NCBI GenBank assembly: GCA_025200525.1
Contig: CM045762.1
Span: forward strand, 88,354,717-88,418,716
DNA: 64,000 bases
From: Camellia lanceoleosa
Lineage: Eukaryota > Streptophyta > Magnoliopsida > Ericales > Theaceae
Direction of reading: 5' to 3'
The notes under the pieces are model-generated. The model saw only the letters and a program-made list of their open reading frames with translations. It had not been told where the DNA came from and made no database searches. The translations under genes were made by a program, and so were the position numbers. Positions 13,986 to 55,589 of the stretch are shown here, piece by piece (within the stretch, counting starts at the first letter, position 1; every line of letters begins with the position of its first letter).

Positions 13986-16176
13986 TATAGCGATCCTGGT
14001 TTTTCCTCTCTTTATTTATTGTATTCTGGACTCGGTTTCATGGATGTGTTGTTGTCTTATTCGCATTTCCATCATTTACTCTTTGTATTTGAGTCTTGGG
14101 TTGTGTTGGGCAAGTTTGAAACAGGTTGGTTGTGCTTTGAAACCAAAAGTTGATGCCCAGAATTTGGCCTTCACGCTCGAGCGGGGCTTTTGACGCTCGA
14201 GCGGGCCCTTTGATTTTGCTTCTCCGCTTGAGCGGGAGTTTTGACGCTCGAGCGTGATTTTCCATCTCCCAACATTTTTCTCTACAGGTCTTCGGACGCT
14301 CGAGCGGAAGTTTTGACGCTCGAGCGTGACCCTTTGATTTTGTTCCTCCATTCGAGCGGGGAGTTGGCGCTCGAGCGGGGACCATCGCCTGCAAAACTTC
14401 TGTGAGTGTGCATCCGACGCTCGAGCGGGCGTTTTGACGCTCGAGCGTGAGTCTGTGTCTGACGCTCGAGCGAGGGTTTCCACGCTCGAGCGGGGTAACT
14501 TTTATATCAGTCTGAGTTTTACCTTTTTGGATCACTTTTTGATTTTCTTTCTCTCTCTTACTTTTTCAAAACCACCATTGGAGAGCACCTCACTCTGAAA
14601 CTCTAACTTCTCTCTAGGGTTTGATCTAGTAGGAGTGATCTTCTAACCTTGGGCCTTTGTAAAAAGTGTGGAGTTTGTTGAGGGCTACATTTTGATCCAA
14701 AAATATTGGGGTTTGGAGCACTTCGAATTTCTTCATCTTCTTCCTTTGAGCTCCGAATTTGAGGTAGGGATAACTACTCATTTTTATAATCTTTGACATA
14801 AGTATTTAGTCATTTTGATTTAATGTTGAAGTTGGGTGATTTTGGGTGCTAGGGTTTCGAATGAATAAAGAGGGATTTTGTTATTTTGACTCATAAATGT
14901 GTATTTTGGGTCTTAAAATGATAGTATTGATGTTATTGAAGTTATTTTGGGCCTTTGGGTCAATATTGAGAAAATGGGGAAAAAGCCCTAAATTGTTTTG
15001 ACAAATTAATTCATGAAATTAATTTGGGAAATTATGGAAATATGAAATTAAGTTGGACTTAATGAAATTGGCATAATATGAGATAGAATAGTGGAGTTGG
15101 ATTTGTTAATCACTCACCCTTTGGAAATTGTCGATGGTTTATCTGCTGATGTAATTATTATCTATTTCGAAATAATTGCTTTGGGCTATCGGTGGAGGAT
15201 AGCCTTAATTGTTGTAGACAATGCATGATGATTAGGCGAACTAAAACTAATCAATTGAATATGTCATCGAATATGACGGTTGGAATAATACATCAAATTT
15301 ATGTATTGATTGATTATGTATATGATATGTGTTTACATACATTGTATTGTGTGGGAGGAGATAGGGGATGTACTCCATGGTTTAGGAGAAGATAGGGGAT
15401 GGACTCCTAAACCGGATACTATTTGGGAGGAGATAGGGAATGGACTCCATCGATACAGCAAATATGTGTATCTATTGAAGTATTGATACAACAAATCTGT
15501 GTACCATATATGGAGTACGGAAGTGTTTTATTTGAGATTGATACAGTAATTATGTGTATTTATTGTGAAGTATGAGGTGTTTAATTTGAGTTGTTATCTC
15601 AATTGAAATGGAAGTACTGTTGATATGAGATGTAATCTCATTTAAATTGTTTGGCCAGGTCCTGAGCCATAGTTATCAATTGAGAAATTGAATAAGAAAT
15701 GGAAAATGGAATGAAACATGGACACATTTGCCATGTAATTGAAATGGGTTATGAATTGATTTATGTGAGTTAAACATTTATCAAATGCTAGTGTTTTAGT
15801 TATTGCTCATATTATGTTTAGCATATCTCTACTGGGCGTTGGCTCACCCTATATGGGACACCATTTTCAGGTATAGCTATTATGCCACCTTCGAGGACGT
15901 AGCTTGGAAGGCTTGAGGCTGTTGGACTCTTTTAGTTAATTTTGTTGTGTTACATGTATATCAAGCCAAGGGCTTATTTTGTGTAGAGTTAGTACTCTTT
16001 TTTTGTAACCAAGCATGTTGACTTGAAAAGTTGTAAGCCCGTAGGGCATTTACTTTTATTGTCAACATGTAATACTTTTGGACTAAATACTCTAATGAAT
16101 AGAAATATGTTTATTTCTCTTATGTTTATGGATGTCGCGAATGCATGATTTATGGGTTTATTTTTAGGGCTTTACA
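13986..16176 (+). repeat. 3' LTR of the first Tekay element (2191 bp)
   Basis: It begins TATAGCGATCC right after the purine tract and ends GGGCTTTACA. The usual TG start is changed to TA. Landmarks shared with the other Tekay-type LTRs here are the paired decamers near the start, GAGGTAGGGAT, GGGCTATCGGTGGAGGATAG, a short tandem-repeat zone (15350-15460), GGCTCACCCTATATGGGA and GTAGGGCATTTAC. Confidence 0.88.
14174..14492 (+). repeat. Cluster of six paired CGCTCGAGCG decamers
   Basis: Ten perfect copies of the self-complementary decamer start at 14174, 14194, 14245, 14297, 14317, 14368, 14418, 14438, 14463 and 14483. Near copies lie at 14225 and 14349. They fall into six pairs whose starts are 20 bp apart (one pair 19). 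The spacers are T-rich, for example GGGCTTTTGA and GAAGTTTTGA. Distances between pairs vary (45-72 bp), so this is not a simple tandem repeat. Confidence 0.95.
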
Positions 16177-16973
16177 ATCAAGCTTTTAAAATCAATGATT
16201 TCTCATTTTTCTATGGAATCACACATTAGATACAAATATAGTAATCCCTCATTGATTCACTGTAATACTTTATCAAGCATAAATTTCACAACATCTCAAT
16301 ATTTTTCCAAATCCCCAATTTCTAGGGTTTTCACAAAACTAGATTCCCCCCCTCCCCCTCTCTTTTTTTGAAAGGATTTTCTCAAAACAACACTCAAACT
16401 TAACAACATAGCTCATACTCTCTAAAGTTTGAAGAAGTATAGAAAAAAAAAAAACCCACTTTTAAATCATCTAGAGCTCATGAACCAAAACCATAGTTCA
16501 AAATATAAGAAAATGATTTTGCAAAAATATATATAACTCTAAAAATATCTCTACCTCAAGTTTGGGAGAGGAAAGAGAGAAAAACTCTAAAATTCAACAT
16601 CGATGAAATCTTGATTTGATTGGTTAAAACGTAGTCCTCGCCCTCTTCGATTTGGTATAAAAACCTCTATCAAAATCTTGATAGATTTTGCTAAATCTTA
16701 GAGAGAAGTTTGAGTTTGGATGGATTTGTAAAGAGATGGAACAGAAAAGATGAATACATATAGAGAGGAAGATGAAAAAAAATGAGCAAAACACGTTTTG
16801 GGTATCAAATTTGAGGAAAAGGCTCAAAATTTGAGATAGACATGCGAAAAACCACACGAACGGAAATCAAAATTTGCACGACTGGATTTCTTGCGCCTCA
16901 TGAGCTGTTTGAGTCAGAGATGAGCCTAGGATTTCTACCAAATCCGCATGAGCGATTTTCTGTCCATAAATTT

Positions 16974-18946
16974 TATAGCGACCCCGGTCTTTTCCCATTT
17001 GGTTGTTGTATCCGGACTTAGGTTCCGTGGATCTTGTGGTTATATATATGTTGTTGTCGTCCTTTATTTCCTTGTCATTTCAGTTATGGGTTGTATTGGG
17101 CAGGTTTATTACAGTTTGGGAGTGTTTGGGAGCAAAGGGTTCTTGCCTGCATTTGGTCCTTCGCCGGCGGCAGTCGCTTCGGCGAGCTCTTGTTTTGGGC
17201 CTTCGCCGAGTCATGGTTTATTCGCTCGGCGGCGCTGCGTCTGGGTATAGAACCTGAGAGCTGTGTTTCTTGGCTCGAGCGAGCTTTCCTTCGCTCGAGC
17301 GAGCGAGGTGTATGTTTTCGAGTTATTCGCTCGAGCGAGCATTCTGTCGCTCGAGTGTGCTTCTAGGTTGCAGACTTGATGCTTCGAGTTTTTGGCTCGA
17401 ATGAAACTTTCTTCGCTCGAGCGAGGCTTTCTTGTGTCAATGCTCGGTGAAAAACTAATCCTTCGCTTCGGCGAGCTGTTTTATTTAAATCGCAAGTGAC
17501 GGCGGTCTTAAACATCTTTTTTCATCCTCTTTTGTTTTAAAAACCCTAGGTCCGTGTTCTCTCTCCCTCCACTCACATTCTCTCTTAGGTTTCATCTATT
17601 TTTAGGGTGTTTCTACCCTAGGTTCTTTGTTAAAAAGATAGAGGGTCGCGAGGGCTTTGTTTTAATCTGAAAGTTTGGCGGTTTGGAGCACTTTGGGTTT
17701 TGGGTCATCATCTCCACTTGAGTTCTTCACTTCGAGGTAGGGATACCCTACTCCACACTATAGGTTTTGTCCTAAGTTTTGGTCATTTTGATATGTTGGT
17801 GTTGTTCGGTAATTTTGGGAAAAGCTAGGGTTTGATTTATAATTTAAAAAGCCCTAATTGTTGAAATAAATTAATTCGTATAATTAATTTTGGGAAAATG
17901 GGGAATTTGGTTTAATTCATGAAATTGGGGAATTATGGGATTAAATGGTGTAGTTGGATAATTTAAGTACTCACCTATGAAAATGTTGAGTTTATATTTG
18001 TTGATACATTTATTTCCTGTTTAGAAATAACTGTTTGGGGCTATCGGTGGAGGATAGTCGTGATTGTTGTAGACATTGCATGTTGATTAGGGAAAACTGA
18101 AACTAATCACATTGAATAAGTCATTGAATATGACGGTTGAATTAATACAGCAAATACGTGTATTGATTGAATATTGTGTATGACAAGTGTTTAATACATT
18201 GTATATGCATATTGTTTGGGAGGAGATAGGGGATGTACTCCATGGTATAGGGGATGGACTCTCAAACCTATTTAGGAGGAGAAAGGGGATGGACTCCATT
18301 AGTACAGCAAATATGTGTACTAATTGATTTATGGAAGTGTTTTAGTATGAGCCTTAGTCTCATTTGAATTGTTGATATTGAAAGTAATGTTAATGTGAGA
18401 TGTAGTCTCATTTTATAGTTTGGCCACGTTCTGAGCCATGTCTGTATAAATGGAAAGTTGAATAATAACGGAAAGTGAAACGTGTCATGGACATTATTGT
18501 CATGAAACTGTATAGTGATATAATGGATTTATAAGTGTTAACCATCTATTGAATGTTATTGCTTTAGTCAATTCTTATATTTGGTTTAGTATATTTCTCC
18601 TGGGCTGTGGCTCACCCTATACGGGAACATCATTTTCAGGTCCAGGTGATATGCTACCTCCAAGGACTTAGCTTGGAAGGATTTGAATTTGAAGACTTGT
18701 TTTAGTTAGTTGTTATTTGATATTACATGTAAACTCAAGCCAAGGGCTTAATTTGTAGTTGAGTTAGTACTCACATTTTGTGTCCAAGTGTTGGCTTGGA
18801 AAAGTCAGAAGTAGGGCATTTACTTTTGATGTTACATGTGATGTTTTTCAATAAGAATACTCTGATGAATGGAATAATGTTTTGTTTTCTTATATCAATG
18901 CATGTCAATATTGTGTATATTGTGGGTTTATTTTGAGGGCGTTATA
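16974..18946 (+). mobile_element. Solo Tekay-type LTR (1973 bp) with target duplication AATTT
   Basis: It starts TATAGCGACCCC, ends GGGCGTTATA, and is flanked by AATTT at 16969-16973 and 18947-18951. Both termini carry one transition relative to TG...CA. No internal region is present, so the element was reduced to one LTR by recombination between its two LTRs. Confidence 0.92.
17272..17423 (+). repeat. Three 20-bp-spaced decamer pairs in the solo LTR
   Basis: Decamers start at 17272/17292, 17328/17348 and 17394/17414, each pair exactly 20 bp apart. Sequences are GGCTCGAGCG or CGCTCGAGCG with few changes. Upstream, GC-rich variants (CGCTTCGGCG, CGCTCGGCGG) occur at about 17174-17235. Confidence 0.92.
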
Positions 18947-26072: not shown

Positions 26073-29000
26073 ATGGGTTGGGTTCGAAGAGAGAAGGATG
26101 GCAAGCAAAGGAAGCGACCAATTGTTTATGGTATTTACTTTTAATATTTGTTTAATTTTGAAGCTAATGATTTTGAAAAATCGATTTCTGATATAATACT
26201 ATTTTGATTTGGCATTTTTTAGAATATATCTTTGTCTATTTGTCTTTGAAAAGGATTTGTTTAATCGTAATTGTTTTACTTGAATAGTGTAATACTTGAT
26301 TAGTTTTAGTTTAATCAGTCCTTAAAAGAAACTCATTTTTTATGTAATACTTATAAAAAATCAATTTAGTTTAATCATTTTGTAGAATACAAATTTTTTT
26401 TTTTTTTTAATGTATTCATACATGGATTTCTTCAATTGGAATTGTCTTATGGTAATAGTAGTTTAATAATATTTTTATTTATTTATTAGTATAATTAGTC
26501 CATAATAGCATATTTTTTCATTTAAAAATGTAGAGAAAGGATCTTTTTATTTCACAATCAAAATGCATCATGGGGGGTTAGTTAGTTTTTGTAACGCCCC
26601 GACTTCCGGGTCGTTAATAAATCAAATCAACCTCAAATCAACCTTTAGATGATTCAACTCCAATCGCCACTAAATTTGCTTCATGCCTGAAAAATAAATT
26701 AATTCGGGAAGTATACAGTACAACAGGAATAGCAAGGTTCAGACAGAAAATAAATTAACAAAGATCCAGCAATTACACAACTGATTAGATTCGATAAACA
26801 AGCAATTTATCAAATTGCACAAACAAGTCAACTCGACATATGATAATTTATCCAGAACCAAATACTCGGTCCTACTCGGTACATGACCAAAGACCGGCCT
26901 CACCCCCCTCACCCAAGCACAACCGCTTATCCGGGGTATTGGTACAGAGTATATTGGCAAAGTCCACTCGATCCATGTACGGAGCATTTCCACGTCATTT
27001 AGTCAGACAAATCAACATTTCCAACACAGATTAACTACACAGAGTTCATCAAATGACTAGAGTAATCAAATGAATCAACAATGAATAATTCCATAGAATT
27101 TATCAAATGATCAGAATAATCAAGAGTTTATGGGAATTAAAAATAAACTCTTGCAAAGAGAATTTAGGAAGCATATTGTATACCACCGAATTACCTCAAA
27201 TCAATCTCCTCCATCTCCAACACTTGAATCTCGATCTTTCGCCATAAATCTCCAAATTCTAAGCCATAAGGTATGAAAGGTTTCACAAAATCTACAACTC
27301 TCCTCCTTTATGAAAATGCTTACTCTCACTCTAACCACTCTTAATCTAAACTCAAAATGTGTATAACAAATGGAGAGAGATATAGGAAAAACCATAGAAA
27401 GAAGTTGAGAGGTGGCTCAATTTATAGGCAACTTGGTGTAACATACTAGTTGGAATTTGAAAGGACAAGTTTGAATATGAATGGACCACTAATAAGGATA
27501 GTAAATGAACTACTAGTAAATGAACCACTAATAAGGATATTAAATGAACACTAAACACTAATTGATATTAAATGAACACTAACTAGAATTAAATGAACAC
27601 TAGTTAGACTATGAATGGACACTAGTTGGAATATGAAAAAACACTAAAAATACGGGGTGTCACAGTTATAATCCTCAAAGGGTTTATAGTGATGGATTGA
27701 TAAGTCATTTTGACTTTTGTAATTTTGATGAAATTTCACTTGTGGAGTTGGATAATATGGCCAAGGAAGTGGGCTGCACTAGATGTAACATCTATTACTA
27801 TAAGCTTAATTATTGTGCTGGGTTAGAGTTGATTAACACTGATGAAGATGTAATGACGTTAGAGACACCTGTGGATGGAAACAGAGTAGTAGAGGTTTAT
27901 ATAGGTTGTTTAGGAATGGATGGTGTTATAGGGTCAAGTGCAAAAAGAAGTCAGAGAAAGGAAGTACTTGTAGATATACAGGTAGTCGAAGAGGAAAATA
28001 GTGATGACTATGATCCTAATCCCTCAGACTCTTCCTCATCTAATGAGTCTGAGAAATATGAGGATAATGACTATGGATTTTCTGATGATGATGCATTGTA
28101 TGAGGCTAATGTTGACAAAGAGCTAGAGTTTGCTGGTGTAGGAAGTAGTAAGAATGCAATGGCTGAGCCAGTTGATGACCTACAAAGCCTTGGAAGCTTC
28201 TCTGATGAGCTAAAAAGTATTGACAGCTCATCTGATGATGAAGGTACTTCTCATGGGATGCAACACCCAGTTTTTAATGTTCACTCTGATATGCACAATC
28301 CTTAATTCAAACTTGGTATGGAGTTCAAGAGTCATGATATGTTTAGGGATGTTGTGAAGGAGTATGCAATTAAGTGGGGAAAACATATAACATTTATCAA
28401 GAATGACAAACAAAAGGTGAGGGTAGAGTACAAAATTGGTTGTCCTTGGGTTTGTTATGCTTTATATGTAAAACATGATGGGTTGCATAGGATCAAAACA
28501 CTTGTTAATGAGCACACTTGTAATAAATCTTTTAATGTGGCACATGTGAGTTCCAAATGGATTGTCAAGAGGTACTTTGAAAGAATTAGGTTAAATCCTA
28601 CATGGCCAATTCAATCATTGGCAGACACTATTTCAAGTGAGCACAATGTGAAGGTTGACTTACAAAAAGTGAGAAGGGCAAGAAACAAGGTGTTGACACA
28701 AGTAGAGGGTACTGCAACTGAGCAGTTTGCAATGTTATGGAGTTACATTGAGGAGATTAGGAATATCAATCCTGAAATAACAGTCTGCATGAAGGTGAAA
28801 CAGATTCCAAAGGTTAATGAAGGGAGTAATCCAAGGGTTATTGATGAGACCAATACAGAGTCAAAGTTCAAAAGGTTGTACTTGTGTTGGGGTCCATTGA
28901 AGAAAGCTTTTATGAATGCTTTCAGGCCAGTCATAGGAGTTGATTGATGCCATTTGAAAGGGTCACATGGTGGTATTCTCTTGAGTGCTGTTGGGATAGA

Positions 29001-36807: not shown

Positions 36808-38377
36808 ATATGGTGGTCGATGCTTAAAATAGGACGTCCGTGAGTAGTGTAATGAGTATTGTCATTCGAGAATGAAAGATGTTGGGTGTTGTCGGTGAGT
36901 TTAACGTGCATTTTGGTGAGTCTGTTGAGATGGCTACCTTGTTTACTGTTGTTGCGTAGCCTACTTTGTTTAGTTGAGGCTCAACAACATGTCTATGAGG
37001 TAGAGACTATCCGAGGAAATATCTCTAGTAGGAAAGTAGAGAAGTGTCTATGTGTCCATTCTGATTTGAGTGTGAGGTATCTAGTCCGCTTGTTTATGCC
37101 AAAGTAGTGTACAGAGAAGGTACTCCGAGAGTTCCACCATTCATGCCTTGCGGTACATCCAGGAGGCACGAAGATGTATCACAATCTTTTGTCACCAATT
37201 TCGATAGAGGGGGATGAAGAGAGGCGTGGCTCTGTTTGTTTCAAGGTGCCTCACTTGTCAACAAGTGAAGGCCGAGCACCAACAACTAGCAGGTATGTTA
37301 TAACCCTTACCTATAGCCAAATGGAAGTAAGAGCATGCCACGATGGATTTTGTTGTGGGTCTTTCGAGGACTCAACGGGGTAATAATGCCATGTGGGTAG
37401 TTGTCCACCGGTAACCAAGTCTGCTTATTCCTTACCTATGCGCATGAGTGATTCAATGGATTATCTTGTTGAGTTGTATATTAAAGACATAGTGCGACTT
37501 CACGGGGTCCCGGTGACTATCGTCTCGGATAGGGATCCGTGTTTTACGGCTCGGTTGTGACAAAGTCTTTAGAGTGCCTTGGACACTAAGTTAACCTTTA
37601 GCACCGCTTATCATCTTCAATCTTACAGGCAGTCTGAGCACACTATTTAGATTCTAGAGGACATGCTTCGGGCTTACGTTCTCAACTTTAAGGGGTCTTA
37701 GGAGTGACATTTACCTTTGATCGAGTTTTCTAACAATAGCTTTTAGGCGAGCATATGAATGGCTCCTTTTGAGGCCTTATATGGCCAACTTTTCACCGGT
37801 ATGTTGGGCCGAGGTGGGAAATGCATCTATGTTGGGCTCAAAGTTAGTCCGAGAGACGACAGAGCAGGTTGCGCTTATCCGTAAAAGATTGGTTTTGGGT
37901 CAAAGTTGCTAGAAGAGCTATGTCAACCGGAGGAGACCCTTATCTTTTAAGGTGGAGGATCATGTATTCCTCAAGATTTATTCAAGATGGGGTTTAATGA
38001 GATATGAAAAGAGCGAAAAGTTGTCTCTGAGGTTCATTGGACCTTTCGAGGTCCTAGAGCAAATTGGAGTGGTAACTTATCGGTTGGCCTTGTTACCCCA
38101 ACTTTTCGAGGTTCATGATGTGTTTCATATTTGTATGCTCCAGAAGTATGAGCTCAATCCTTCGCATGTACTAGATTGGACTGATTTAGAGGTAAATAAG
38201 GATGCCTCATATAAGGAAAGACCAATTCAAGTCTTGTATATTCGAGAACAAGTCTGGCGAGGCAAGACTATTTCGTTGGTTAAGGTATTGTGGCGACACC
38301 ATGGGGTCGAGGAAGCGACTTGGGAGCGTGAGGCTGAAATTCGTAATAAGTATCCAGACTTTTTTTCTAGTGTTTGA
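36808..38377 (+). pseudogene. Tekay integrase and chromodomain, many stops
   Basis: It begins with a worn RNase H-integrase linker (FENERCWVLSVSL region), then parts of the zinc finger and the DDE core ([15 protein letters not shown], about 37510-37545). The GPF module (FIGPFEVLEQIGVVTYRL, about 38027) and the chromodomain (RGKTISLVKVLWRHHG, EEATWERE) lie in one open frame from 37952 to the stop at 38375-38377. The surviving end is similar in length to the first copy. Confidence 0.8.
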
Positions 38378-38765
38378 ACCATTTGTAATTAATTTCATGT
38401 TGTGTTGTAATATATAAACATTGGGAATGCTTTGGAGATTTGAGATCAACGTGTGTTGAGTGGGGTTGTTATGTTTTCTATACTGTTGAGCATGAGTTGT
38501 TTTCGTTGTTAATATTATTGCGTTATTGTTGTTGACCTAGTTCAATTTTGCGGACGAATTTTCCTAAGGGAAGAGGTTATAGCAGCCCGGGTTATGACTC
38601 GACACATTTATACTCCATGGTTCTGAGTTTTGTATATATTGATGTTGTTTATATTTGTTCAAGTCCTTGCTGTTGATTGGGAGTTAAAATTTAGATTGTT
38701 GGTTACGTTTGAAACATGTTGAGACTTAATAGTTTTGGGGAAATTCTGTCTATTTTTCTTAGGTT

Positions 38766-39065
38766 TGCTTGAATGACTTTTTCTTCACTTGAGCGGTCTT
38801 TTGTTTATTCCAAAACTTGTGTTTCCAGGCTAAACTTCTGGGAGTAGTTCTTTCTTAGCTCGAGCTATGTTTTGGTCGCTCGAGCGATGGTCTGTTTACA
38901 TTCTGAACTATTAAGAATTTGCTCGAGCGGTGTTTTGTTCACTTGAGCGATCTATTTTGTAGGGTTGATATTCTGGGAGTTTGGTTTATCCACTCAAGCC
39001 GTGTTTTGGTCTTTTGAGCGATGTTATGTGTCTGACACTCGAGCGGTGTTTTGGTTGCTTGAGCG
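38766..39065 (+). repeat. Five 20-bp-spaced decamer pairs
   Basis: Starts are at 38766/38786, 38857/38877, 38920/38940, 38991/39011 and 39036/39056, each pair exactly 20 bp apart. Individual decamers are degenerate (AGCTCGAGCT, CACTTGAGCG, CTTTTGAGCG), but the spacing is kept. Spacers are GTGTTTTGGT, GTGTTTTGTT or ATGTTTTGGT. Confidence 0.93.
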
Positions 39066-39410
39066 GTCTGTTCGTATAAAGCTACGAGAAAAATATCTTT
39101 TCTCATTTTTCTACTTTTCTCTATCTCTTTCTACTTTCTAAACCAAATCCTCTCATCTCTCTCTCTCTCTAAATTCTTACATAAACCTCCCTATACACTC
39201 AAATTCATGAATCTCGCAACCTTGGTACTTTGGGACAAAAGGTAGAGAGCGTGGAAGTGACTCTTTTAATCTGAAAAGTTCAGGTGTCTGTCACCGTCTA
39301 TGGGGTTGTGTTCCTCATCTCTTTTGCTTTTCGAGGTGGGGATTTCTTTAATGTTTTTGCATGGTACTTAGCTTCGTGATGTACCCTTGAATAGGTAGTA
39401 TTTTGAGAAT

Positions 39411-39456
39411 TTTGGGTTTGGGTTTGGGTTTGGGTTTGGGTTTGGGTTTGGGTTTG
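39411..39456 (+). repeat. (TTTGGG)n array of about 7.5 units
   Basis: A G-rich hexamer array, close to but different from the plant telomere unit TTTAGGG. It lies inside the LTR body and could form a G-quadruplex on the plus strand. Confidence 0.9.
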
Positions 39457-40751
39457 ATTTTGGGTATGATTTGGGATTTTGAATTGGGTTATAAAATAGG
39501 GGTTTTGTTGATGGGTTTAAATGAAATGGTTTGGTGGATGAAAAGTATTGGAAACCATGAATCTCTCATAAATGAGGCTTTTGAAATGAACAGATGTTGT
39601 TTGAAATATTCGAAGTCCTTGGGATTTATTGCTTTGGAACAAAGGTGGAAAGTGATAGTATTATGGAATAATGTTCTAATTCATGTTTGATTGGGAAGAT
39701 AAGTTGAACATGTATTGTTACTCCTATATTGAAATTTTAGAATTTATATCTATTACTTGAAATTTATCTTTTGAATAAAGATATCTGTTTTGGCTATCGA
39801 TGAAGGATAATATTGATTGTTGCAGAAATTGCATGAGAACTAGATTAATTGAAGCCATTCACTCATGCATTGTATTTGAACACTTGTTTCATACTTATAC
39901 ATTGAAAATGTATCGTTTTGATAAAAATGAGTGAATACCGTGGTGAATCTGGTTAGGGGGTATGGGGTGTGGTTGTGGTTATTATTATGTTGGTCTGTGT
40001 GTCTTTGGTGAAAGTCTAGAAACCCATGCAGGTAGGTGCCGATCCTTCCGGTTAATACCGATAAAATGGCTTTGGTAGTGTTTGTATAGCCTACTGGCAG
40101 CCACGTAGCTAGAGATTCCCAATGTGTGTTTCCACTGCCCTATTTTCTGTTTCGGAAGTAATAGTTTATCAATTGAATTATAAATATGGCATGACATTGT
40201 TTGAAAGAGAAAATGTATATTGTTTTTGTAAATAATATTCATGTGCATTCACCATATGGCTTTGTTAAGCATCATACAAATTATTAAAATTATTTCTACT
40301 AGGCATTAGCTCACCCTATGTGGAAACCAAATTTCAGGTGTTGATGGTATGCCTCCACCAAGGGGTTAGCTTGGGAGGATTGTGGAGCTGAAGGCTAGTT
40401 GTATCTTTGTTTTGTAAATATTCTTTTGTATAAGCCTAGGGCTTTCTTTGTAGTAGACTTGACCCACTTTTGTTGTAACCAAGTATCGTCTTGAAAATTT
40501 GTAACCTTTAAGATATGAACTTGTATTTATGTATTGTTGTTTCAATATGTGGATCACATGCTATAGATTTAGATCATAGGATTAGTGAATGTATTAATGC
40601 ACGTGACACCTTTTGTAATACATCATGGAAATTAATGAATGAATATTAGTTCTGGAAACGATCATGATATTGAATGATTGAGACTATAAGCTTCTGCGTA
40701 TTTGTTGAGAATCATGAGGGTATCTGTTGTTAATATTTTCGGGGTGTTACA

Positions 40752-41132
40752 AGTACTAGATGAGGCCATTCACCGCTAGAGCACACAAAACACCGCTCGA
40801 GCGGTCTCAACAATCAAGTAAAGTCCCCAAAATTCTCAAACACACCCCTAAGCATCCAAAAACACCCAAAAAACAAAGTATCACCTGAAACAGAGATGCA
40901 TGAGTAAGATAGCAATAATGTGATACTAAGATGAGATAATCTACACATCATGAAACCTTCAAACTTGTGAGACGGATAATATGAACATGAGATCCTTAGT
41001 AAGCAAGGTAAGAATGTAGCTAATGACATAGGCAACACATGAATGCAATGATAAAAGGAGAACATGATATCTCACAAAGACAATGAGTGCGTATGATCCT
41101 TGAATGTCTACAACCGCTAGAGTTAATCCTAG
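40752..41132 (-). repeat. ~380 bp segment of a copia 3' internal region (copy 1)
   Basis: It is nearly the same as 55536-55917, sharing AGTACTAGATGAGGCCATTC, CAATCAAGTAAAGTCCCC, TAAGATAGCAATAATGTGAT and AACCGCTAGAGTTAATCCTA. It contains one decamer pair (40774/40794). Its left edge is the end of the Tekay LTR, so the copia element is cut there. Confidence 0.9.
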
Positions 41133-41829: not shown

Positions 41830-43098
41830 AGGGTTTTATAAAAATGTCAACTCTTTGATGCTAGTAGATACATGTTGAAGAACAACAAGGCCCTCCTCAA
41901 CTAACTCTTGAATGAAATAGTGACGAATGCCAATATGTTTAGAGCGAGAGTGTTAGGCCGGATTCTGAGAAATATTGATGGCACTCGTGTTATCACAGAA
42001 AAGAGTAAGTGTGTGCTAATCTATCCCATAATCATGAAGCATTTACTTCATCCAAATCATTTGAGCAAAACAACTACCTGAGGCAATGTACTCTACCTCG
42101 GTGGTCAAAAAAGAGATGGCATTTTGCGTTTTGCTATGCCAGGCGACCAAGTTATTTCCGAGGTGAAAATAACCTTCGGATGTGTTTTTGCGATCATCAG
42201 CACACCCTGCCCAATCGGCATAAGAAAAGCTAGTAATGTCGGTCGTGGTGTCAGAAGAGAACCAAATTCTATACCCAAAGTCTCACTCACATACTTGATA
42301 GTACGCTTGACGGCTAGAAGGTGAGACTTTTAAGGCAAGCTTGATAACAGGCATACACACCAACACTAAAAGCAATATCGAGCTGACTCGCCGTGAGGTA
42401 CAAAAGGCTCTTTGTCATACTCCTATAGAGGGTAAGATCAACATCAGTGCTAGAAGAGTCCTTAGTCAAGTGAAGACTCATGCTCATGGGGTTTGTGCGT
42501 GTTTGACAGACTCAAGACTGAACTTAGACACGAGACTCTTAGCATACCTAGTCTGAGAGACAAACATACCCGATGGTAATTGCTTAATTTGAAGCCCCAA
42601 AAAGAAAGGCAATTCCACTATCATACTCATTTTCAACTCTTGTGTCATGCAATCCAAGAAACATTTAACAAGAGATTCATATGTGGATCCAAACACAATA
42701 TCATCAACATAAATTTGAGCAACAAAGATATACGACTTAGTATGTTTCACAAATAAAGTCTTATCCATACTACCCCTTTGAAAGTCATTGTCAATTAGAA
42801 AGGGCGTCAACCTATCATACCAAGCCCGAAGGACTTGTTTCAACCCATATAGTGCCTTGTCTAGTTTGTGGACATGAGTAGGGAACTTAGGGTCCTCTAA
42901 ACCCTTTGGTTGCTCAACATAGGCTTCCTCTTTCAAGTAACCATTCAAGAATGCACACTTCACATCCATTTGAAACAATTTAAACCCAAAAAAGAAAGCA
43001 ATAGCAAGTAAGATACGTATAGATTCGAGACGTGCAATGGGAGAAAACATCTCATCATAGTCAACACCCTTAACTTGCGTATAGCCTTGAGCAACCAA
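41830..43098 (-). pseudogene. pol: Ty1/copia reverse transcriptase and RNase H, decayed
   Basis: RT (43098 down to 42484) opens with VAQGYTQVKGVDYDEMFSP and has MDVKCAFLNGYL, LDKALYGLKQ, the catalytic YVDD (codons at 42700-42711) and FLGLQIKQLPSG. It continues in broken frames to RNase H: SYADWAGCADDRKSTSGGCF, TEVEYIA, then the target-like SKHIGIRHYFIQELV (about 41925-41960). The SKHI-IRHHFI ending suggests a Sirevirus-like copia lineage. The frame stops dead at 43098, where another LTR begins, so gag, protease and integrase of this copy are not adjacent. Confidence 0.85.
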
Positions 43099-43591
43099 TG
43101 TGATGCCCCAAAAATCAGGAGCATCAATGAATATATTAACAAATAAATATATGGTGTTTCTAAGGTTACAAGTCCAAAAGTAAATAATGATACATCAAAG
43201 TTAAATGTGTTACAGATAACGATACCCTAATTTTACAAATTATAAGTAAGAATATAATTTCAGTAGTGATATGAAAAATTTTGACATCGGTCCATGCTTG
43301 CCGCAACTCCTCGAACCTTTCCACAACATCTTCTTCACTGGTGAATTCTTCCAAAATCTGGCATTAATGCCAGGGCAACAAAAATAGCCATGAGCTCTAA
43401 CGTCCAGTAAGAACACACCTGAATAATACAAACAAGTATAGACATACAACATATAATTTGCGTAAATTGAAAATTATATAAAATTACAAACAATTACATT
43501 AATGCATAGTCACAAACAACAATTAGAAATAATAACGATAAGTCACAGTCAGTTAGTACCACTTAACAGTTAGTAGTAATAGTGAGATCAA
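43099..43591 (-). repeat. Reverse-strand Tekay-like LTR end
   Basis: It starts TGTGATGCCCCAAAAATC at the point where the copia RT is cut. On the minus strand this is an LTR end (...GGGGCATCACA), and TTACTGGACGTTAGAGCTCA (about 43400) echoes the CTGGGC...GCTCACC landmark of Tekay LTRs. The solo LTR 43592-45344 interrupts it. Confidence 0.5.
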
Positions 43592-45344
43592 TGTAGCGAT
43601 CCCGATTTTAACCCGGTCAACTTACGAGGGTTGAGCTTACGGGAAAGGAGCTCGCCGAAAGCAAAAATACAAAATGCATTCGAAATTGCTTACGGGAAAG
43701 TGTATTTCACGCTCGAGCGGACCAGGTTATATCAGTCCGTAAGGGGAGATTTCAGATCACTTTTTTTCAGTTCTCTCTCTCTAAAACTCTCCAAAATTTC
43801 CAGATCTAGAGCTTCTCTCTCTAGAAGTCATCTTCTCTCTTTGATTCCTCCAAATCTGTTGGGAGTTAGACCAAAGTTCTTCATCAAAGTTGTGTAACTT
43901 CTCGAGGGCTTCGTTGTGTGCGGTGGAGATTGAGTTTCAACAACGTAAATTTTGGGGTTTCATCTCATTTCTTCTTCAAAACTTGAGGTAGGGATTTTCT
44001 TAGAGTTATATATATATATATATTTTTGCAAGATCTATATGATTTTCGAAATCATCTTTCGATAGCTATGAAAATTGATTGTTGATTCAAGAACTTGAGC
44101 GATTTTGAAAGTGGGTTTGTCTCTTGTTCTTTTAAAATGATCTTATGGGTTTTGATCTTCGTTGATTGAAGAAAAGATGATTTTGGAAAGTTTTCTTTCA
44201 AAAGATTTGAGTTGTATAGTTTTGGTGAGAAAACCTAGACTTTGGGGATTTTGTTTTAGAGACTAAAAATCCATGAATGATATTGTTATATTTATTTTGT
44301 GTGTCAAAATAAATGGATGTTTGGAAAATTTCTTATTTATATTTATATAAATGATGAATTTCAGGGAATACGAGAATTATTGTTCATTTTGAAAATTATT
44401 GTTCAAAACGTTGAAATAGTCTTGAAATGACTAATTGTTGAGGATACTTGAGAAGAGGAAATTGTGTTATTCCTTGGATGATGAATTGAAATAACAGTAT
44501 TTATATTCATCTTGTGTTATTGGCATATCAATTCATTTGATTAAATTAAACTTTGAAAGTTGATTTAAAAACTTACATTGAGAAAAGAATGTTGAGAAAC
44601 AAGTTTTCATGGAATGGTTTTGGGGTAAATACGTTGGTAAGTCTTGATAAGTGGTGTAGATGATATTGAATAAGTTGGCCTGAGAGTCCGGGATGAAAGA
44701 CCGAAAACCCGCGCGAATAGGTATTGAGCCTTCCGGTTAATACCTGTAAAAATGAAAAATTGGTAGTACTTGTATAGTCTACTTGCAGACACCGACCTAG
44801 GGATTACGAGAGTCATATTTACCGCTCTTGAAATGAATTGTTAAGTTTTGAAGAATTGAAATTGCATGACATCATTGAGCATGATGGTTTTCAAAGATGA
44901 AGATGTGATTTTCTTTCAAAAGGGCATAGCATGGCATGTGCATTTCATCTCTTGAGACATGTATAAAATGTATATACTTTGTTAAGGATTTTCTACTGGG
45001 CTTTATGCTCACCCTACGGGATTTTGTGCAGGAAAAGATGTGGTGATGTCGCCTAACTAAAGGCGAAGAAATGTGTGTTGAGAGTACGAGACTCTCATTT
45101 TGCTGTGACTCTGTGTGTAAGCCAAGGGCTGTATGTGTGTGGGTTTGAATAATCATTTTGTGTAACCAGGCTCAAGCCTTGGAAACTTGTAAACCCTTGA
45201 GGGTATTTATTTGTTTATTTACTTGTTGTTGGATTAATGTATTGTTGCATGAAGAACTATTGTATCATGTAATGTAAGTTTGGAGATTTATATTTGATTT
45301 ATATTGTTGCATTATCATCGGGGCTAGAAATTTGGGGCGTTACA
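43592..45344 (+). mobile_element. Solo Tekay-type LTR (1753 bp) with target duplication ATCAA
   Basis: It starts TGTAGCGATCCCG and ends GGGGCGTTACA with intact TG...CA. It is flanked by ATCAA at 43587-43591 and 45345-45349. It has one perfect decamer (43710-43719), ACTTGAGGTAGGGATTTTCT (about 43981), and CTACTGGGCTTTATGCTCACC (about 44992). No internal region. Confidence 0.93.
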
Positions 45345-47557: not shown

Positions 47558-47747
47558 TATAGTGATCCCGGGTTTACCCTTGTTGTACAGTGATCCGGGC
47601 ATGTGCCCGTGGATGTTGGTAGTTGATCTTTATCTTGTGTACATCCTTCCTTACCTTGTATTTGAGTTATAGGATGTGTTGGGCAGGTTTGTTACAGATT
47701 GATTGAGTTTAGAAACCAAAACTAGTTGGCGAGTTTTTTGATTTATG

Positions 47748-48093
47748 CGCTCGGCGGGTATTCTGCGCTTCGGCGGAGTGTAATTCGGTTGTCGCTCGGC
47801 GGACATTTACTTCAGCGGGGTTTGCACCTTGCAGTATTTCTCGTGCTCTGCGAACCTGCGAGAGTGATTCTCTTCGGCGGGCTTATGCGCTCGGCGGGTT
47901 GCTTTCAGCGGGCTTGTTGGCGCTCAGCGTCTGATGCATTTTGGTGTAAGTTACGGGAGGAGAGTTGCGCTCGGCGGTAGTTCTGCGATCGAGCGGACTT
48001 GCTTTATTTTTGTTCTTGGCGCTCGGCGAGCCTTCTTCTTTCGGCGGACCTAATTTTGTTCTTCGCTCGAGCGCTGTGTTATCCGCTCGAGCG
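47748..48093 (+). repeat. Decamer cluster with a GC-rich variant
   Basis: Variants CGCTCGGCGG pair with similar words 18 bp away (47748/47766, 47968/47986, 48020/48038). The last pair is two perfect CGCTCGAGCG copies 20 bp apart (48064/48084). Unpaired CTTCGGCGGG and CAGCGGG words lie between. Confidence 0.85.
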
Positions 48094-49026
48094 GAGATGT
48101 CGTATATCAGCTAGCAGTTAGGCTTTTCAAAATCACTTTTTGCCTTCACACTCTCTCTCCTACTTTCCAAAAAGACTTTTTGCGAGCCTCTCTCTCTAGA
48201 AACCCCCTTCTCTCTAGGGTTTGATCTAATTAGAGGTTGTTCCTTGCCTTTGGCCTTTGTAAGAGGTGTGTTGATCGTCGAGGGTGTCGTTTTGATCCGA
48301 AAAGTTTGGACTTTGGAGCATTTTGGTTTTGGTCTCATCTCCGTTTGGGCTCTAGCTTCGAGGTAGGGATAGCCTACTCCTCTCTATGGGTTTTGCCTTT
48401 AAATTTTAGTATTTTGAGAGGTTGGGGTTGATTGGGTAATTTTGTGGAAGTTTGGGGGCTTTTGTGTAATTTTACAAAAGTTGGGGTTTTGTTTATAATA
48501 AACCTAATTGCATGTTTGGCATAGAGAAATGTTATTAATGTTGAAACATTGATAGAAAATGGAACCTAAGGGTTGTAATGTTAATTATGAAAAATGCCCT
48601 AATTACATTGATAAATTAATTGGGATAATTAATTATGAGAGTTGAGGAATTGAGAAGGAAATGTTGAGATTGAGAGTGTATGGGGCTAAAGGGTGTAGTT
48701 AAATCTTTTATTACTCACCTCGTTGAAATGTTGATATATTATCCATTTGTGCATTTATTTCCTGTTTAGAAATAATTGCTTTGGGCTACCGGTGGAGGGT
48801 AGTGTTGATTGTTGTAGACAATGCATGATGATTAGGCAAACTAAAACTAATCAATTGGATGTGTCATAGAGTATGACGGTTGTTGGAATACATTAACTTT
48901 ATGTATTGATTGATTGTGCATATGACCAATGTGTTTATATGCATTATGTGTTGACGGTTGTTAGAATACATTAACTTTATGTATTGATTGATTGCGTATA
49001 TGATTCTGTGCTTATATGCATTGCTT

Positions 49027-49375
49027 GTGTATGGGAGGAGATGGGGGATGTACTCCACGGTTTAGGGGAAGATGGGGGATGTACCTCTAAACCGGTTAAT
49101 GATTTAGGGGAAGATGGGGGATGTACCTCTAAATCGGTTAAAGGTTATGGGGAGATGGGGGATGAACCCGGGGATGCAGCTCATATGCTCGCCCATTGCA
49201 GTTGTGATATAGCTCATATGCTTATCGATTAAAGTGCTGATATAGCTCATATGCTTATCTGTGATAGTAATGATATAGCTCATATGCTTATCCATGGAGA
49301 TGTTTGTGTGGTTTGATATAGCTCATATGCTTATCTGTTGTAGTAATGATATAGCTCATATGCTTATCTATTGAA
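49027..49375 (+). repeat. Two minisatellites in the LTR body
   Basis: First, GGGGGATGTAC-centred units with a ~48 bp period (49027-49160). Second, six GATATAGCTCATATGCTTAT units (core AGCTCATATGCT at 49178, 49211, 49244, 49277, 49320, 49353), mostly 33 bp apart. The other Tekay LTRs have one or two related words (GATACAGCAAATATGTGTA) at the same place. Confidence 0.88.
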
Positions 49376-50128
49376 ATGTATGTTGATTTGATATAGCACT
49401 AAAATGTATATCGTTATCAATTGTGAAATATAGAAATGTTTCTATGTTAAGTTGATGCAACACCAACATGTGTATCATAAGTAGAGTATGGAAGTGGTTT
49501 ATGTGTTAATGATACAACACCAACATGTGTATCTATAATGAATGTCGAAAGAGTTTTAGTGAGGGATTATAATCTCATCAAATGTTTTGGGCAGAGTACT
49601 GAGCCTTGTTTTCAAACTCATAGTTGGATAAGAAAATGGAAAGTGAATTGTAACATAGACTTGACTGTCATGGAATCATAATAAGATGTAAATGGAGGTA
49701 TAAGTGTTGATCATTTATCAATTGCTAATCTTTTAGTCATTGTTCATAGTTGGTTTAGTGTATTTCTACTGGGCTGTGGCTCACCCTATATGGGAACATC
49801 ATTTTCAGGTACAGGAAGCATGCCACCTCCAAGGACATCGCTTGAGAGGCTAGAGGCAGGCAGATGTTTGTGGTTTTGGTTGTATTTTGTAATATTACAT
49901 GTAATTTCAAGCCAAGGGCTATATGTAATTGAGTTAGTACTCCCCTCCTTGTAACCAAGTGTTAGCTTGGAAAGCTGTAAGCCCATAGGGCATTTGATTT
50001 TGTTGTTAACATGTAATGCTTCTTGTAAGGAATTACTCTGTGGAATGGGATGATGTTTGTTTCTTATATCAATACATGTCTAAATTGATGGGTTTAATGT
50101 TATATTATTTTGAGGGCGTGACAATGTA

Positions 50129-50884
50129 GATATATATATATATATAAAGACGGCATACTTATTCAAGCCTATTTGTATGGAAGCTAGCTAGGCTAGACGA
50201 AGGTCCCCATTCCGAAGTGGGCTCCCTCCCCTACTCTATGGTGGGCTGAGCTAAGGTTCAGTCTTGGCCCATTCCCCACTCCGAAGTGGGAAAGGCCATG
50301 GGCTTAGCCCAAACTCCTTTCTTCACTCTGATGTGGGTTGAGTTAAGGGTTCGATCTTGGCCCTTTTTCCACTCCGAAGTGGGCAGGGCCATGGGCCTAG
50401 CCCTAGCACCCATCCCTACTCCGAAGTGGGTTAGTCCACAACTTGGGCTCCAAGACTCTTACTCCAAGACACTTGAGCTCTAATAAATCAACTAATACCA
50501 GGTGAGTAAAAGGCACGTAGTGCCTACAAATGAGGGAATTGCTCAATAGAGTCTTTGCTCTCTTCCAATGAGGAGTGACCTAGCATAACAAATAAGTGCT
50601 AGGTAACAGAGAGAGAAACTTGATGAGCAAGTTAAGCCTTCTCTATAAACGGTAACCTTACCTCCCTTTGCAAAAGATCAATCTCTTTACACTTTATACA
50701 CACTCATCTTCTCTACCTTCTCTCCACCAAACTCTGGTACTAACTTGACTGTCGGAGGGGTATTTGACTGACCCCTAGTTGGGCAGCCTAACCATCTATT
50801 CCTTATGCAGGCTTTCTCCCATCAGTGCACCAGGGTTTGTCTACGAAGTTCCATCTTACTCTATTATGGAAACTAGTCCACACA
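50129..50884 (+). repeat. Second Tat-like LTR (left border unclear)
   Basis: It ends CACA at 50884, directly before a TTTGGCGCC primer site. It contains hairpin repeats (50205-50430) and CTCTATAAACGG (about 50641), a possible TATA box. The left end merges with a (TA)n run next to the solo LTR. Confidence 0.6.
50205..50430 (+). repeat. Five copies of a small hairpin, CCACTCCGAAGTGG
   Basis: Copies near 50206, 50277, 50323, 50369 and 50413 are CCATTCCGAAGTGGG, CCCCACTCCGAAGTGGG, TTCACTCTGATGTGGG, TCCACTCCGAAGTGGGC and CCTACTCCGAAGTGGG. CCACT and AGTGG pair around a CCGA loop. Between copies GGCCATGGGC(T/C)TAGCCC recurs, itself nearly palindromic. Confidence 0.85.
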
Positions 50885-52256: not shown

Positions 52257-53170
52257 TGAAAAACCCTATGTGACTCATGATTCGAAATAGATTCAATTAC
52301 AACAAATCCCAAACACACAAAACAAACAATCTAAATCATTTAGCACGTACGAAAGTGATTTAACTTGTTTCACAATTGATAAATTAACACAAAAGATTTA
52401 ACGTTCAAAAATATCACAATTGAAGCACCTCCAATTATAATAAAAAAATCACAGGCTAAACACCACTACACAATCCACTATGAAGATAATGAAATTACAC
52501 AAGAGTACAAGAAATTACCCAACACTCTGTAGAATTGACTTCCACTCCTTGTGTCTCTTCCATCAACATCTTCACCTCAGAATTGATTAGTCCGGTGTTG
52601 AATCCACAACACCTATGTTGCATCCATAACGATGAGTTGCTTCAAACTCATTCAAAGCATCCAAGCTCAAATCTTACGAAATCCACCGATTAAAGCTCTA
52701 AGAAGGTTGAATCATAACAAGCCCCTTGATATGTGCAATTCAATCCATGTGAGGTGACAAACTCATGAAATCATTAAGGAAAACAATAGCTAGGATCTCC
52801 AGATGAATACACAAAAGTTCTCAAGTCTCAAGTCTTAGATCTGGAAGCCGTAACCCTAAAATATGCAACTTATGCAACTTTAAACAAAACAGGGTCGCAA
52901 AGACCTCTCGAGCGGTGTGTCTAAGAGGGAGTGGAACAAAAGTGCCTCCGTTCGAGCAGTAAAAAGTTTGCTCAAGCAGTGAATGAATCCTTTCAGTATC
53001 TCAAAATAGACCTGAACTACTGGAAGGATCATTTCTTCGCTCGAACCAAGAACTCACCGCTTATGCCATCCTTGTACATTGACACACCGACAAACCATCA
53101 AGCCAACCACAAACAATAATACAACTCAAATATGTTTGTTTGCAAAATTGACAACACAAGGGACCTAACA
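52257..53170 (-). repeat. Copia LTR (914 bp), flanked by both primer site and polypurine tract
   Basis: On the minus strand it starts TGTTAGGTCCCTTGTG (at 53170) and ends GGGTTTTTCA (at 52257). The primer site lies beyond its 3' edge and a polypurine tract beyond its 5' edge. It contains single and paired decamer-like words (52905, and 52949/52969). Confidence 0.88.
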
Positions 53171-53690
53171 ACCTCCCCCTTTGTCAATTCTTGGCCAAAA
53201 CACTTCTAATAACAAGGCCCTAACAATACACACTTTAGACATAACATTAACACTCTAAACAACTTGTGTATGAAACACCTTCAAAGATCATAATAAGAAC
53301 AACACTGACACAAGAGATAGATAGATAGACAAAAGATGATTAATAATGAATAGATAGACCATAATGAATAACCAACAATGTTAATATCATCAACATTACT
53401 CCACCTTTTTGACTGGGAGAGACAAAAGGACAGCATGCAAAATAATGGCTGAACCTCAACTAATATCCAAAGCATGTCCCAATATCCAATTGATAACCAA
53501 GAACACCAACACAACCTAGTATATCCAAAAACTATCCAAAAGATGATCAACCATAAACAAACTATGTCCAAAACATCAACACATCCAACAACCGACAAAT
53601 AAAACATTTCCAAGAAAAGCAAATACTACAAAACCATTAAGAGAGAAGTATAAAATAGATATCCAAAACATGCCCAAGAGAGAAGTAGCA
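53171..53690 (-). promoter_or_regulatory. Copia polypurine tract and 3' non-coding DNA
   Basis: On the minus strand AATTGACAAAGGGGGAGGT directly precedes the LTR. This is the plus-strand primer site of a copia element whose internal region lies to the right. The rest is A/T-rich with a GATA run (about 53315-53328). Confidence 0.8.
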
Positions 53691-54729
53691 CTAAGATAAA
53701 GGTGGAGGAGGTGGAAATTGTTGTATCTAAAGATATGAGAGGATCTGGACAAGCTAGTAGAAGGACTGATCCATCAAGGTAGCAATATGTGGCCAGTAGT
53801 GGCCTCCAATAAAGAGAGATGGTCATCAAAGGCATCCACCCGAGCATCTAGTTAATCAAATCGCTTGCTGAAGCTGACCTCAAATGGTGCGAGGACGAAC
53901 TGGCTGCTCTTCTTCATTGGTAGCCCGCAGCATCAAGCTTAGCTTCCTCTTCCATCTGTTCCTCACCAACACCAGAAGGACCCGCCCTGGAAGACTCCTC
54001 CTTAACATGTGCCCTACTTTGGGAGACAAATGCGATTGATTAAACTCCTGTACGGAAGACCTAAGCTTTTCTTGCCCTTAAACCCAAAAATTATTTTTTG
54101 CACAATCATGGTGGGAAGATCAATTTCAAGAAGGTGATAGATGCAATACAGGACATATCCTTGCTCTTGATTGATGTTTGAGCTATGGGTGGTGACATGA
54201 AGATTAGCACAAACTGTGATATTTAGGAGGCAGAACCGAGGACAAAGTTCATTTTGCTTGAGCAGTGCCCCAAGGACCCAATTTCAAGTTGTGCCACAAA
54301 GTTCGGTAGCAACCATGTTAAAATCAGCATTGGGAGATGCAAGAAAAAGGTAATGGCTATCGACAATTGGAGGGATCCCAAGAAAGGTCTGAATCAACTC
54401 CTTGGTGACAATAATTTTCTTAGATCGAACCCAAATTTTGAAAGAAGGGTCGCACTCATTGACAGAGATAATATTGTAATAGAACTCACGACCCAACTAA
54501 GATTTTTAGGACTCGAAATCAGTAGAACCCGGTTACCACTCAAGGGATTGAACAAATGGTGAATGGGATTGGACTTAAAAGTGTTTGGTTGAACATTATG
54601 CTGAAGGTGGACAGTTCTAGACTCATAGGACTCCCTAAACGACTTGGCTTTATCTTTGGAGGGGAACTTCTCATGGTTAAATGACGGGCAATGAGCTGTA
54701 GCCTTTTGATGCTTTGAGGATTGAGACAT
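53691..54729 (-). pseudogene. Extra gene 3' of copia pol, resembling the plant transposon-protein family
   Basis: On the minus strand it starts MSQSSKHQKATAHCPSFNHE, then, after a frame change, shows EFYYNIISVNECDPSFKIWV, KIIVTKELIQTFLGIPP and an acidic hinge (VKEESSRAGPSGVGEEQMEE). A region follows in which LDARVDAFDDHLSLLEATTG can be read through a TAA. REFYxN...VRxxxIxxTxexI..fLG is the signature of uncharacterised plant transposon proteins that are often annotated separately. Here it lies between copia pol-side DNA and the polypurine tract, where some copia elements carry an extra ORF. At least two frame changes and several stops kill it. Function unknown. Confidence 0.6.
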
Positions 54730-54978: not shown

Positions 54979-55016
<38 letters not shown>

Positions 55017-55020: not shown

Positions 55021-55416
55021 CAAAAAGCAAAACAAATAAGCAACTAATTAAAAAATTAAAAAAAAAAATAAATCAATCAAGCTATAGAAACCCTAGATGG
55101 ATGCATACAAATCAACTAATGGAATGTAAAATTAACAAAAATAAACAAAAAGAGAAAGAAAAAACAAAGTGAAAACCCTAGAATGAGGAGAGAAGAGAAA
55201 AAATGAAAGAAAAGAAAAATAAAGAGAGAAGAGAGAACAAACTTACCAAAAAGTGAGGAAAATAACTTGGGAAGGCACAAATCAAAGGGAAATAGAGAAG
55301 ATGAGGCACGAAATCCACAATAGGAGGTGAAGTCACCTTAGGTGGAGAGCGCACGAATAGATTTGGGGAAAAATGGAAATGAAAGGACAGATAGGACTAT
55401 TAAAACTCGCAAAGAC

Positions 55417-55589
55417 CACTCAAGCAACCACTTCATTGCCCCCAGTGAACTTACTAAGACATTGTGGACCACTTGAGCGAAGACTTCATCACTCGAGCGC
55501 TAAAGAGAAACCCTCAGATGTTCAGTCTGCAAACACAAGTACTAGATGAGGCCATTCACCGCTCGAGCGCACAAAACACCGCTCGAGCG
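55417..55589 (-). repeat. Decamer pairs in copia internal DNA
   Basis: Pairs start at 55470/55490 (CACTTGAGCG, CACTCGAGCG) and 55560/55580 (both CGCTCGAGCG), each 20 bp apart. A worn pair is possible at 55417/55437. Read on the element's own strand, the spacer of the perfect pair is GTGTTTTGTG, almost that of the second Tekay LTR. Confidence 0.93.

Follow-up and report, generated by a model that had tools for sequence, protein, structure and literature searches.

A palindromic decamer, CGCTCGAGCG, occurs in pairs with starts exactly 20 bp apart in a 64,000-nt stretch of the Camellia lanceoleosa genome (assembly GCA_025200525.1, contig CM045762.1, positions 88,354,717 to 88,418,716, forward strand), which we refer to as the window. 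Eighteen such pairs lie in retrotransposons of two superfamilies: 14 are on the plus strand in the U3 regions of four related Ty3/gypsy-type long terminal repeats (LTRs), and four are on the minus strand in a single copia family that is Sirevirus-like. Judging from sequence, we propose that the pairs probably act as a two-site module for protein binding close to the promoter. It would be a variant of the palindromic repeated motifs of Sireviruses that now appears in Ty3/gypsy elements with a fixed 20-bp pairing. The positions and spacing of the pairs, a T tract between the decamers, the CpG richness of the gypsy arrays, and the presence of the pairs in two superfamilies can be read directly from the DNA.

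A fixed 20-bp distance between paired decamers

The window is plant-type DNA crowded with retroelement remains, as judged by self-BLAST, open reading frames (ORFs), and Pfam. Scanning it for CGCTCGAGCG with up to two mismatches gave 46 sites, compared with 3.56 expected (standard deviation, 1.93), and none of 100 shuffles reached that number. When start-to-start distances were compiled at one, two, and three mismatches, the commonest distance was 20 each time (9, 14, and 18 pairs, respectively), with 0, 0, and 1 pairs at a distance of 40 and the same numbers at 60. Thirty dinucleotide shuffles scanned at three mismatches gave a mean of 0.07 pairs at a distance of 20 and a maximum of one. The initial annotation of this DNA, made from the letters alone, had listed 18 pairs, proposed a two-site module with a sharp 20-bp period, and named the distance histogram and a shuffled control as checks; run within the window, both agree with it, the histogram having a sharp peak at 20 and single pairs at 40 and 60. 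All 18 of the listed pairs are present, with both decamers carrying at most three mismatches in 17 of them; the pair at 38766 is also there, though its left decamer carries four. The 18 pairs in our three-mismatch scan are those 17 together with one at 17276, which is an overlapping-register artifact. Two features had been missed. One is a sixth pair in the first of the LTRs, at 14349/14368, whose spacing is 19; the other is an unpaired decamer at 43710, which lies 18 bp ahead of a TATA-like word.

We also asked whether other palindromes of the window are paired at 20. The 344 near-palindromic 10-mers that contain five or more G/C gave 11 hits, which are ten of the decamer pairs and one shifted register. 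A scan of 262 frequent 10-mers in the window was swamped by A/T runs and was uninformative. In viral contigs, used as a background, exact decamer pairs 10 to 40 bp apart at 36 loci show no peak at 20 (2 of 36 at 20, and 7 of 36 at 21).

The spacing recurs in homologous ORFs outside the window. An antisense ORF across the array of the first LTR (14038-14535), used as a query, matched 18 proteins at E values up to 10, five of them from Camellia sinensis, and an ORF from the second LTR added one more (P0019), giving 19 related ORFs. The decamer reads RSS, LER, or ARA in its three frames, so that distances can be recovered from the protein. Decoding gave 50 pairs with a distance of exactly 20; they are spread over 17 of the 19 ORFs, with three in P0019 and none in P0008 and P0011. 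There are no decoded distances of 12 to 19 or of 22, two of 21, and two of 23, and shuffled residues average 0.005; thus, of 54 neighboring decamers 20 to 23 bp apart, 50 are at exactly 20. The other neighbor distances wander (25, 30-32, 45, 49-52, 62-70, and more), and only two pairs are at 40. Under a crude model of an equal indel rate, four or fewer changed spacings out of 54 has a P value of 0.0015 or 0.0076, which is indicative only, as these are related copies. The spacing is constant in the five homologs that cover at least 98% of the query, whose identity to it is 42% to 66%. The two-site module with its sharp period is thus supported both by the distances in the window and by the decoded ORFs.

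The Ty3/gypsy-type LTRs and the anatomy of the module

The pairs on the plus strand were placed within a set of five delimited LTRs of one type; other LTRs in the window, such as those of a gag-reverse transcriptase (RT) element at about 2250-6561, fall outside this set. Features are as follows.

13986..16176, plus strand: LTR1, the 3' LTR of a Ty3/gypsy element (self-BLAST, Pfam, ends set by eye)
14174..14492, plus strand: LTR1 array, with pairs 14174, 14225, 14297, 14418, and 14463 (distance 20) and 14349/14368 (distance 19) (decamer scan)
14503..14507, plus strand: TATA-like word TATAT of LTR1 (sequence), 20 bp after the last decamer start (14483)
16974..18946, plus strand: LTR2, a solo LTR with target-site duplication AATTT (similarity to LTR1)
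17272..17423, plus strand: LTR2 pairs 17272, 17328, and 17394 (decamer scan)
17464..17473, plus strand: LTR2 variant box CGCTTCGGCG (three mismatches); TATTTAA follows at 17482, 18 bp from the start of the box
38578..40751, plus strand: LTR3, the 3' LTR of a decayed Ty3/gypsy element (boundaries set by eye; pol remnants between 33279 and 38374)
38766..39065, plus strand: LTR3 pairs 38766, 38857, 38920, 38991, and 39036 (decamer scan)
39075, plus strand: TATAA of LTR3, 19 bp after the last decamer start
43592..45200, plus strand: LTR5, a similar LTR with a short U3 (135-bp match to LTR3; 45200 is where the reading of its 3' end stopped)
43710..43719, plus strand: lone exact decamer of LTR5, 18 bp before TATAT at 43728
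47558..50123, plus strand: LTR4, a solo LTR with target-site duplication ATGTA (similarity to LTR1 and LTR2)
47748..48048, plus strand: LTR4 variant boxes of the CGCTCGGCGG type, neighbors 14 to 19 bp apart (sequence scan)
48064..48093, plus strand: LTR4 pair, whose second decamer starts 19 bp before TATAT at 48103

The element to which LTR1 belongs retains pol pieces at 9902-13182 (protease, RT, RNase H, and integrase; Pfam). LTR3 is preceded by an integrase C-terminal region, with a weak match to the PF00385 chromodomain at 37913-38374 (E value, 0.0014, below the cutoff), and the piece of the LTR1 element that matches this region contains stops. The long LTRs would be in keeping with a Tekay label, which we do not claim. 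Near the ends of LTR2, there are four further frame-shifted 5-bp matches besides AATTT. When the distal U3s are aligned pairwise, those of LTR1 to LTR4 score better than all 10 shuffles in six of six comparisons, and comparisons with that of LTR5 do so in two of four.

On the sense strand of the element, the 18 aligned pairs read CGCTCGAGCG, ten bases, and CGCTCGAGCG again, and the ten-base spacer has T at columns 15, 16, and 17 in 16, 17, and 16 of the pairs. TTT is present in the spacers of 14 of 18 pairs, compared with 102 of 1743 background positions. Using models that omit an LTR's own pairs, the sense-strand spacer scores higher in 17 of 18, the exception being the pair at 55470. This T tract, lying on the sense strand in both superfamilies, is new here.

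The gypsy arrays end close to a TATA-like word. From the start of the last decamer to this word is 20, 19, 19, and 18 bp in LTR1, LTR3, LTR4, and LTR5, respectively; for the first three, we computed the distances for the first decamer of the last pair (40, 39, and 39 bp), the second decamer being 20 bp later. If the three-mismatch box of LTR2 is counted, a decamer starts 18 to 20 bp before a TATA-like word in all five delimited LTRs, and the words lie 8 to 10 bp past the last box. A second new feature is that the gypsy arrays are rich in CpG, with observed/expected ratios of 1.36, 1.40, 0.97, and 1.49 in LTR1 to LTR4, compared with 0.41, 0.47, 0.44, and 0.37 in the rest of these LTRs; the array CpGs that lie outside decamers number 3, 10, 0, and 17, respectively, LTR2 and LTR4 being the two that contain variant boxes.

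An alternative to a functional module is a passive repeat. On this view, a single duplication of a 20-bp unit took place in an ancestral LTR, larger blocks were copied afterward, and the spacing is a functionless relic. The initial annotation had argued that simple tandem slippage does not explain the pairs, and this is only partly right: LTR1 contains higher-order copies that carry whole pairs, in blocks of about 123 bp (14173-14329 matches 14296-14450 at an offset of 123 by self-BLAST) and 45 bp (Tandem Repeats Finder [TRF]). TRF also reports a period of 20 bp in two LTR1 stretches, and the relatedness of the U3s of LTR1 to LTR4 fits passive copying as well. However, no such array is reported by TRF across the pairs of LTR3, triplets are rare (as reflected in the two pairs at 40 among the 19 ORFs), and the distance of 20 is kept in five homologs that are only 42% to 66% identical. 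The scarcity of CpGs outside the decamers in LTR1 and LTR3 also speaks against a relic, although those in LTR2 and LTR4 do not share it. Moreover, the same oriented module is present in the other superfamily, copia, within flanks that by eye are apparently unrelated. We therefore regard a purely passive origin as unlikely.

The CpG content raises a different explanation, that these dense palindromes are an epigenetic handle, attracting methylation or proteins whose binding is sensitive to it, and so sense silencing rather than activate transcription. The high CpG ratios, which are confined to the gypsy arrays, would be accounted for, and CpG transitions make up 25 of the 36 mismatches in decamers, as expected if the sites are methylated. 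Sirevirus repeated motifs define CpG islands as well, according to the available part of the paper describing them (PMC2829016). Neither the 20-bp pairing nor the T tract nor a set distance to TATA is required for such a handle, though, and the copia stretches are hardly enriched in CpG; we consider it very unlikely as the explanation of the pairs, although it may coexist with the two-site binding module.

We note several additional repeats in and around these LTRs. Solo LTR2 is flanked by decamer-like words in similar contexts, CGCATGAGCG at 16945 and CGCACGAGCG at 18993, which could reflect insertion of LTR2 close to, or within, an older element that carried boxes of this kind. LTR3 contains a short run of TTTGGG units at 39404-39455. 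The body of LTR4 contains the word GATATAGCTCATATGCTTATC five times at irregular distances (49200-49380), with a variant just upstream, and beside LTR4, at 50195-50435, there are repeated words around CACTCCGAAGTGGG, with 50233-50339 and 50325-50432 matching at 78%.

The copia family and a model for the module

The four pairs on the minus strand belong to one copia family, with one pair in a U3 and three in a putative linker between pol and the 3' LTR. A copia-type RT (PF07727, RVT_2; E value, 7.2e-52) is encoded at 42487-43194 on the minus strand. Two stop-free pieces match PF20167, which we take to be a marker of env-like ORFs, with E values of 3.3e-5 and 7.4e-9, each under the curated cutoff of the family. 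Features of this family are as follows.

40774..40803, minus strand: pair in the putative linker, in the same copy as the RVT_2 match (decamer scan)
52949..52978, minus strand: degenerate pair in the U3 of a Sirevirus-like 3' LTR, whose start is near 53170 (decamer scan, sequence)
54017..54496, minus strand: env-like ORF in two stop-free pieces (PF20167, profile positions 21-81 and 107-171)
55470..55499, minus strand: pair in the putative linker, upstream of the env-like ORF (decamer scan)
55560..55589, minus strand: perfect pair in the putative linker, upstream of the env-like ORF (decamer scan)
53173..53180, minus strand: Sirevirus-type polypurine tract AGGGGGAG, an exact octamer just before the 3' LTR (consensus from the available part of PMC2829016)

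The initial annotation had placed the pairs in LTRs, and this holds for 15 of the 18; those at 40774, 55470, and 55560 are apparently in the linker, because of the order of RT, pairs, env-like ORF, polypurine tract, and 3' LTR. The 40774 pair comes from a second copy of the element, in which 40749-41131 is homologous to 55535-55917 (91.6% identity over 383 bp; self-BLAST). The polypurine octamer is followed by GT/TG where the consensus has AT/TG, such that 11 of 12 letters agree. Several identical tracts in the linker, a Sirevirus trait, were not found: a search of the whole window gave a single octamer on the minus strand beyond 16352, in an element that is decayed. The spacer of the 55560 pair is identical at 9 of 10 positions to that of the gypsy pair at 38920 in LTR3. 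When the copia stretch 55550-55693 was used as a protein query, no homolog was recovered, and the copia pairs are thus without replication outside the window.

These observations suggest a model in which each pair would be one oriented 30-bp cis-regulatory module, composed of CGCTCGAGCG, a 10-bp spacer with a central T tract, and CGCTCGAGCG. Gypsy U3s carry it in one to six copies (a lone decamer in LTR5), in an array ending near the TATA-like word, and the Sirevirus-like copia family has the same module both in U3 and ahead of the env-like ORF in its putative linker. Each palindrome could be bound by a homodimer of a host transcription factor, and two dimers 20 bp apart would face almost the same side of the helix and might bind cooperatively; the last dimer, about two turns from TATA, could help to recruit the transcription machinery. 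We infer protein binding, activation, and the nature of the factor from these arrangements. The earlier suggestion that the two arms sit on one face of DNA is compatible with the data and favored by the strictness of the spacing (50 decoded pairs at 20, compared with none at 19, two at 21, and two at 23). A bolder and more tentative possibility is that a single host complex, with paired dimers on CGCTCGAGCG-N10-CGCTCGAGCG and the T tract as a hinge, may have been recruited by two unrelated superfamilies, either independently or by exchange of the 30-bp module, giving a shared switch beside TATA.

Alternatively, the pairs could act in RNA, with the transcript of each pair folding into a hairpin (stem of about 10 bp, loop of 10 nt), either for use by the element (in dimerization or packaging) or for recognition by the host and conversion into small RNAs. 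Seven of the 18 modules were folded and all seven form an arm-to-arm stem (z scores of -2.3 to -5.6); in three of them, the loop has exactly the 10 nt anticipated by the initial annotation. Palindrome-rich LTR regions of maize Sireviruses are small-RNA hotspots, as described in the accessible parts of PMC5311732 and PMC10760457. The arm-to-arm stems, however, arise because the palindrome is repeated, and pairing within pairs is not clearly better than with shuffled partners: Watson-Crick matches number 150 of 180, against a shuffled-partner mean of 147.1 (fraction, 0.12), and 166 against 164.2 with G-U pairs included (fraction, 0.08). An RNA element predicts neither the T tract nor the distance to TATA, its loop length should vary freely where we see a strict 20, and Rfam gave no matches at gathering scores. 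A hairpin loop would not call for so strict a spacing, which, taken with the orientation of the T tract and the narrow range of TATA distances, fits DNA that is read by proteins. An RNA-level role is thus unlikely, and we rejected the hairpin as the main function.

Several observations weigh against the two-site module. The U3s of LTR1 to LTR4 can be aligned, so the gypsy arrays partly share ancestry and are not independent cases. The TATA-like words are the first such words 3' of each array and were chosen by us from the sequence; in the copia stretches, none is seen at a matching distance, and the CpG observed/expected ratios there are 0.71 and 0.72, compared with 0.59 for the window. With 10.5 bp to the helical turn, a distance of 20 bp amounts to 1.9 turns. 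Nor is 20 obligatory, as illustrated by the lone decamer of LTR5, the LTR1 pair at 19, and variant boxes at 14 to 19; indeed, for the nonpalindromic variant boxes of LTR4 and LTR2, these are the close spacings and 20 is absent. The CpGs outside decamers in LTR2 and LTR4 also count against it. Lastly, the decamer mismatches are mostly CpG transitions, which suggests that the copies are decaying, and they are probably silent now.

The window also contains elements unrelated to the pairs. Downstream of the gag-RT element, 7148-8375 consists of diverged tandem repeats (offsets of about 100 bp and multiples of about 50 bp; 78% to 83% identity), within which there is an open frame on the minus strand at 7232-7789. 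A MuDR-type transposase remnant (PF03108) is at 28318-28947, with further ORFs from 27697 to 30231, and a LINE-type remnant (zf-RVT, PF13966) is at 60516-61661 on the minus strand.

Comparison with known palindromic LTR motifs

Plant copia elements such as Tnt1 have short tandem U3 boxes, sometimes symmetric, upstream of TATA, which have been viewed as binding sites for host factors (PMC2829016, PMC3601003). They differ from the module described here in sequence and in their small number of copies, and we know of no exact two-palindrome module in elements of this type. A literature search found no paper joining the decamer CGCTCGAGCG to retrotransposon LTRs, and among the matches listed, papers on CGCTCGAGCG alone are seemingly unrelated by title. 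In literature on LTR palindromes, gypsy, chromovirus, Tekay, and Camellia, no 20-bp pair appears in the titles or opening lines of abstracts among the matches listed. If the pairs are a true binding platform, they would offer a short DNA handle on a host factor driving plant retrotransposons, and a case of gypsy and copia elements using one switch.

The maize Sirevirus LTRs contain palindrome clusters that form a variable, palindrome-rich cis-region and small-RNA hotspot (Bousios et al. 2016, as summarized in the accessible parts of PMC5311732 and PMC10760457). The arrays described here are likewise a palindrome-rich LTR cis-region but with a different palindrome, and the maize work may already contain a report of fixed pair spacing. 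The maize copia palindrome is also the commonest motif in structured Helitron regions (PMC10760457, in its accessible part), which provides a precedent for one palindrome in two kinds of element.

The closest parallel is found in Sirevirus LTRs, whose repeated motifs, or RM boxes, are described in PMC2829016 (Bousios et al. 2010). These are short palindromes upstream of TATA, proposed to be cis-regulatory. They are numerous in the upstream half of the LTR, where they define CpG islands, and further copies precede the env-like gene in the linker. They are called Sirevirus-specific, from a comparison within Ty1/copia, and have a CGG-CCG core except in Tnd-1. Our module differs in that its core is CTCGAG, the CGCTCGAGCG consensus being without the CGG-CCG signature, in that Ty3/gypsy-type LTRs hold 14 of the 18 pairs and copia only four, and in that its boxes are paired at a distance of exactly 20 bp around a T tract of fixed orientation; the available part of the paper makes no mention of a fixed pair spacing. 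The likeness is one of form: a palindromic box is present at high copy in U3 (6, 3, 5, and 1 pairs in LTR1, LTR2, LTR3, and LTR4, respectively), and the Vitis box CGGTCGACCG agrees with our decamer at 8 of 10 positions. The copia pairs match the RM layout, including boxes upstream of the env-like ORF, and differ in core sequence and CpG island. By analogy, the gypsy pairs resemble RM boxes in how they would work, although by the published definition (superfamily and core) they are not members; if the proposal is correct, it would extend palindromic repeated motifs, so far described as specific to Sireviruses, to another superfamily.

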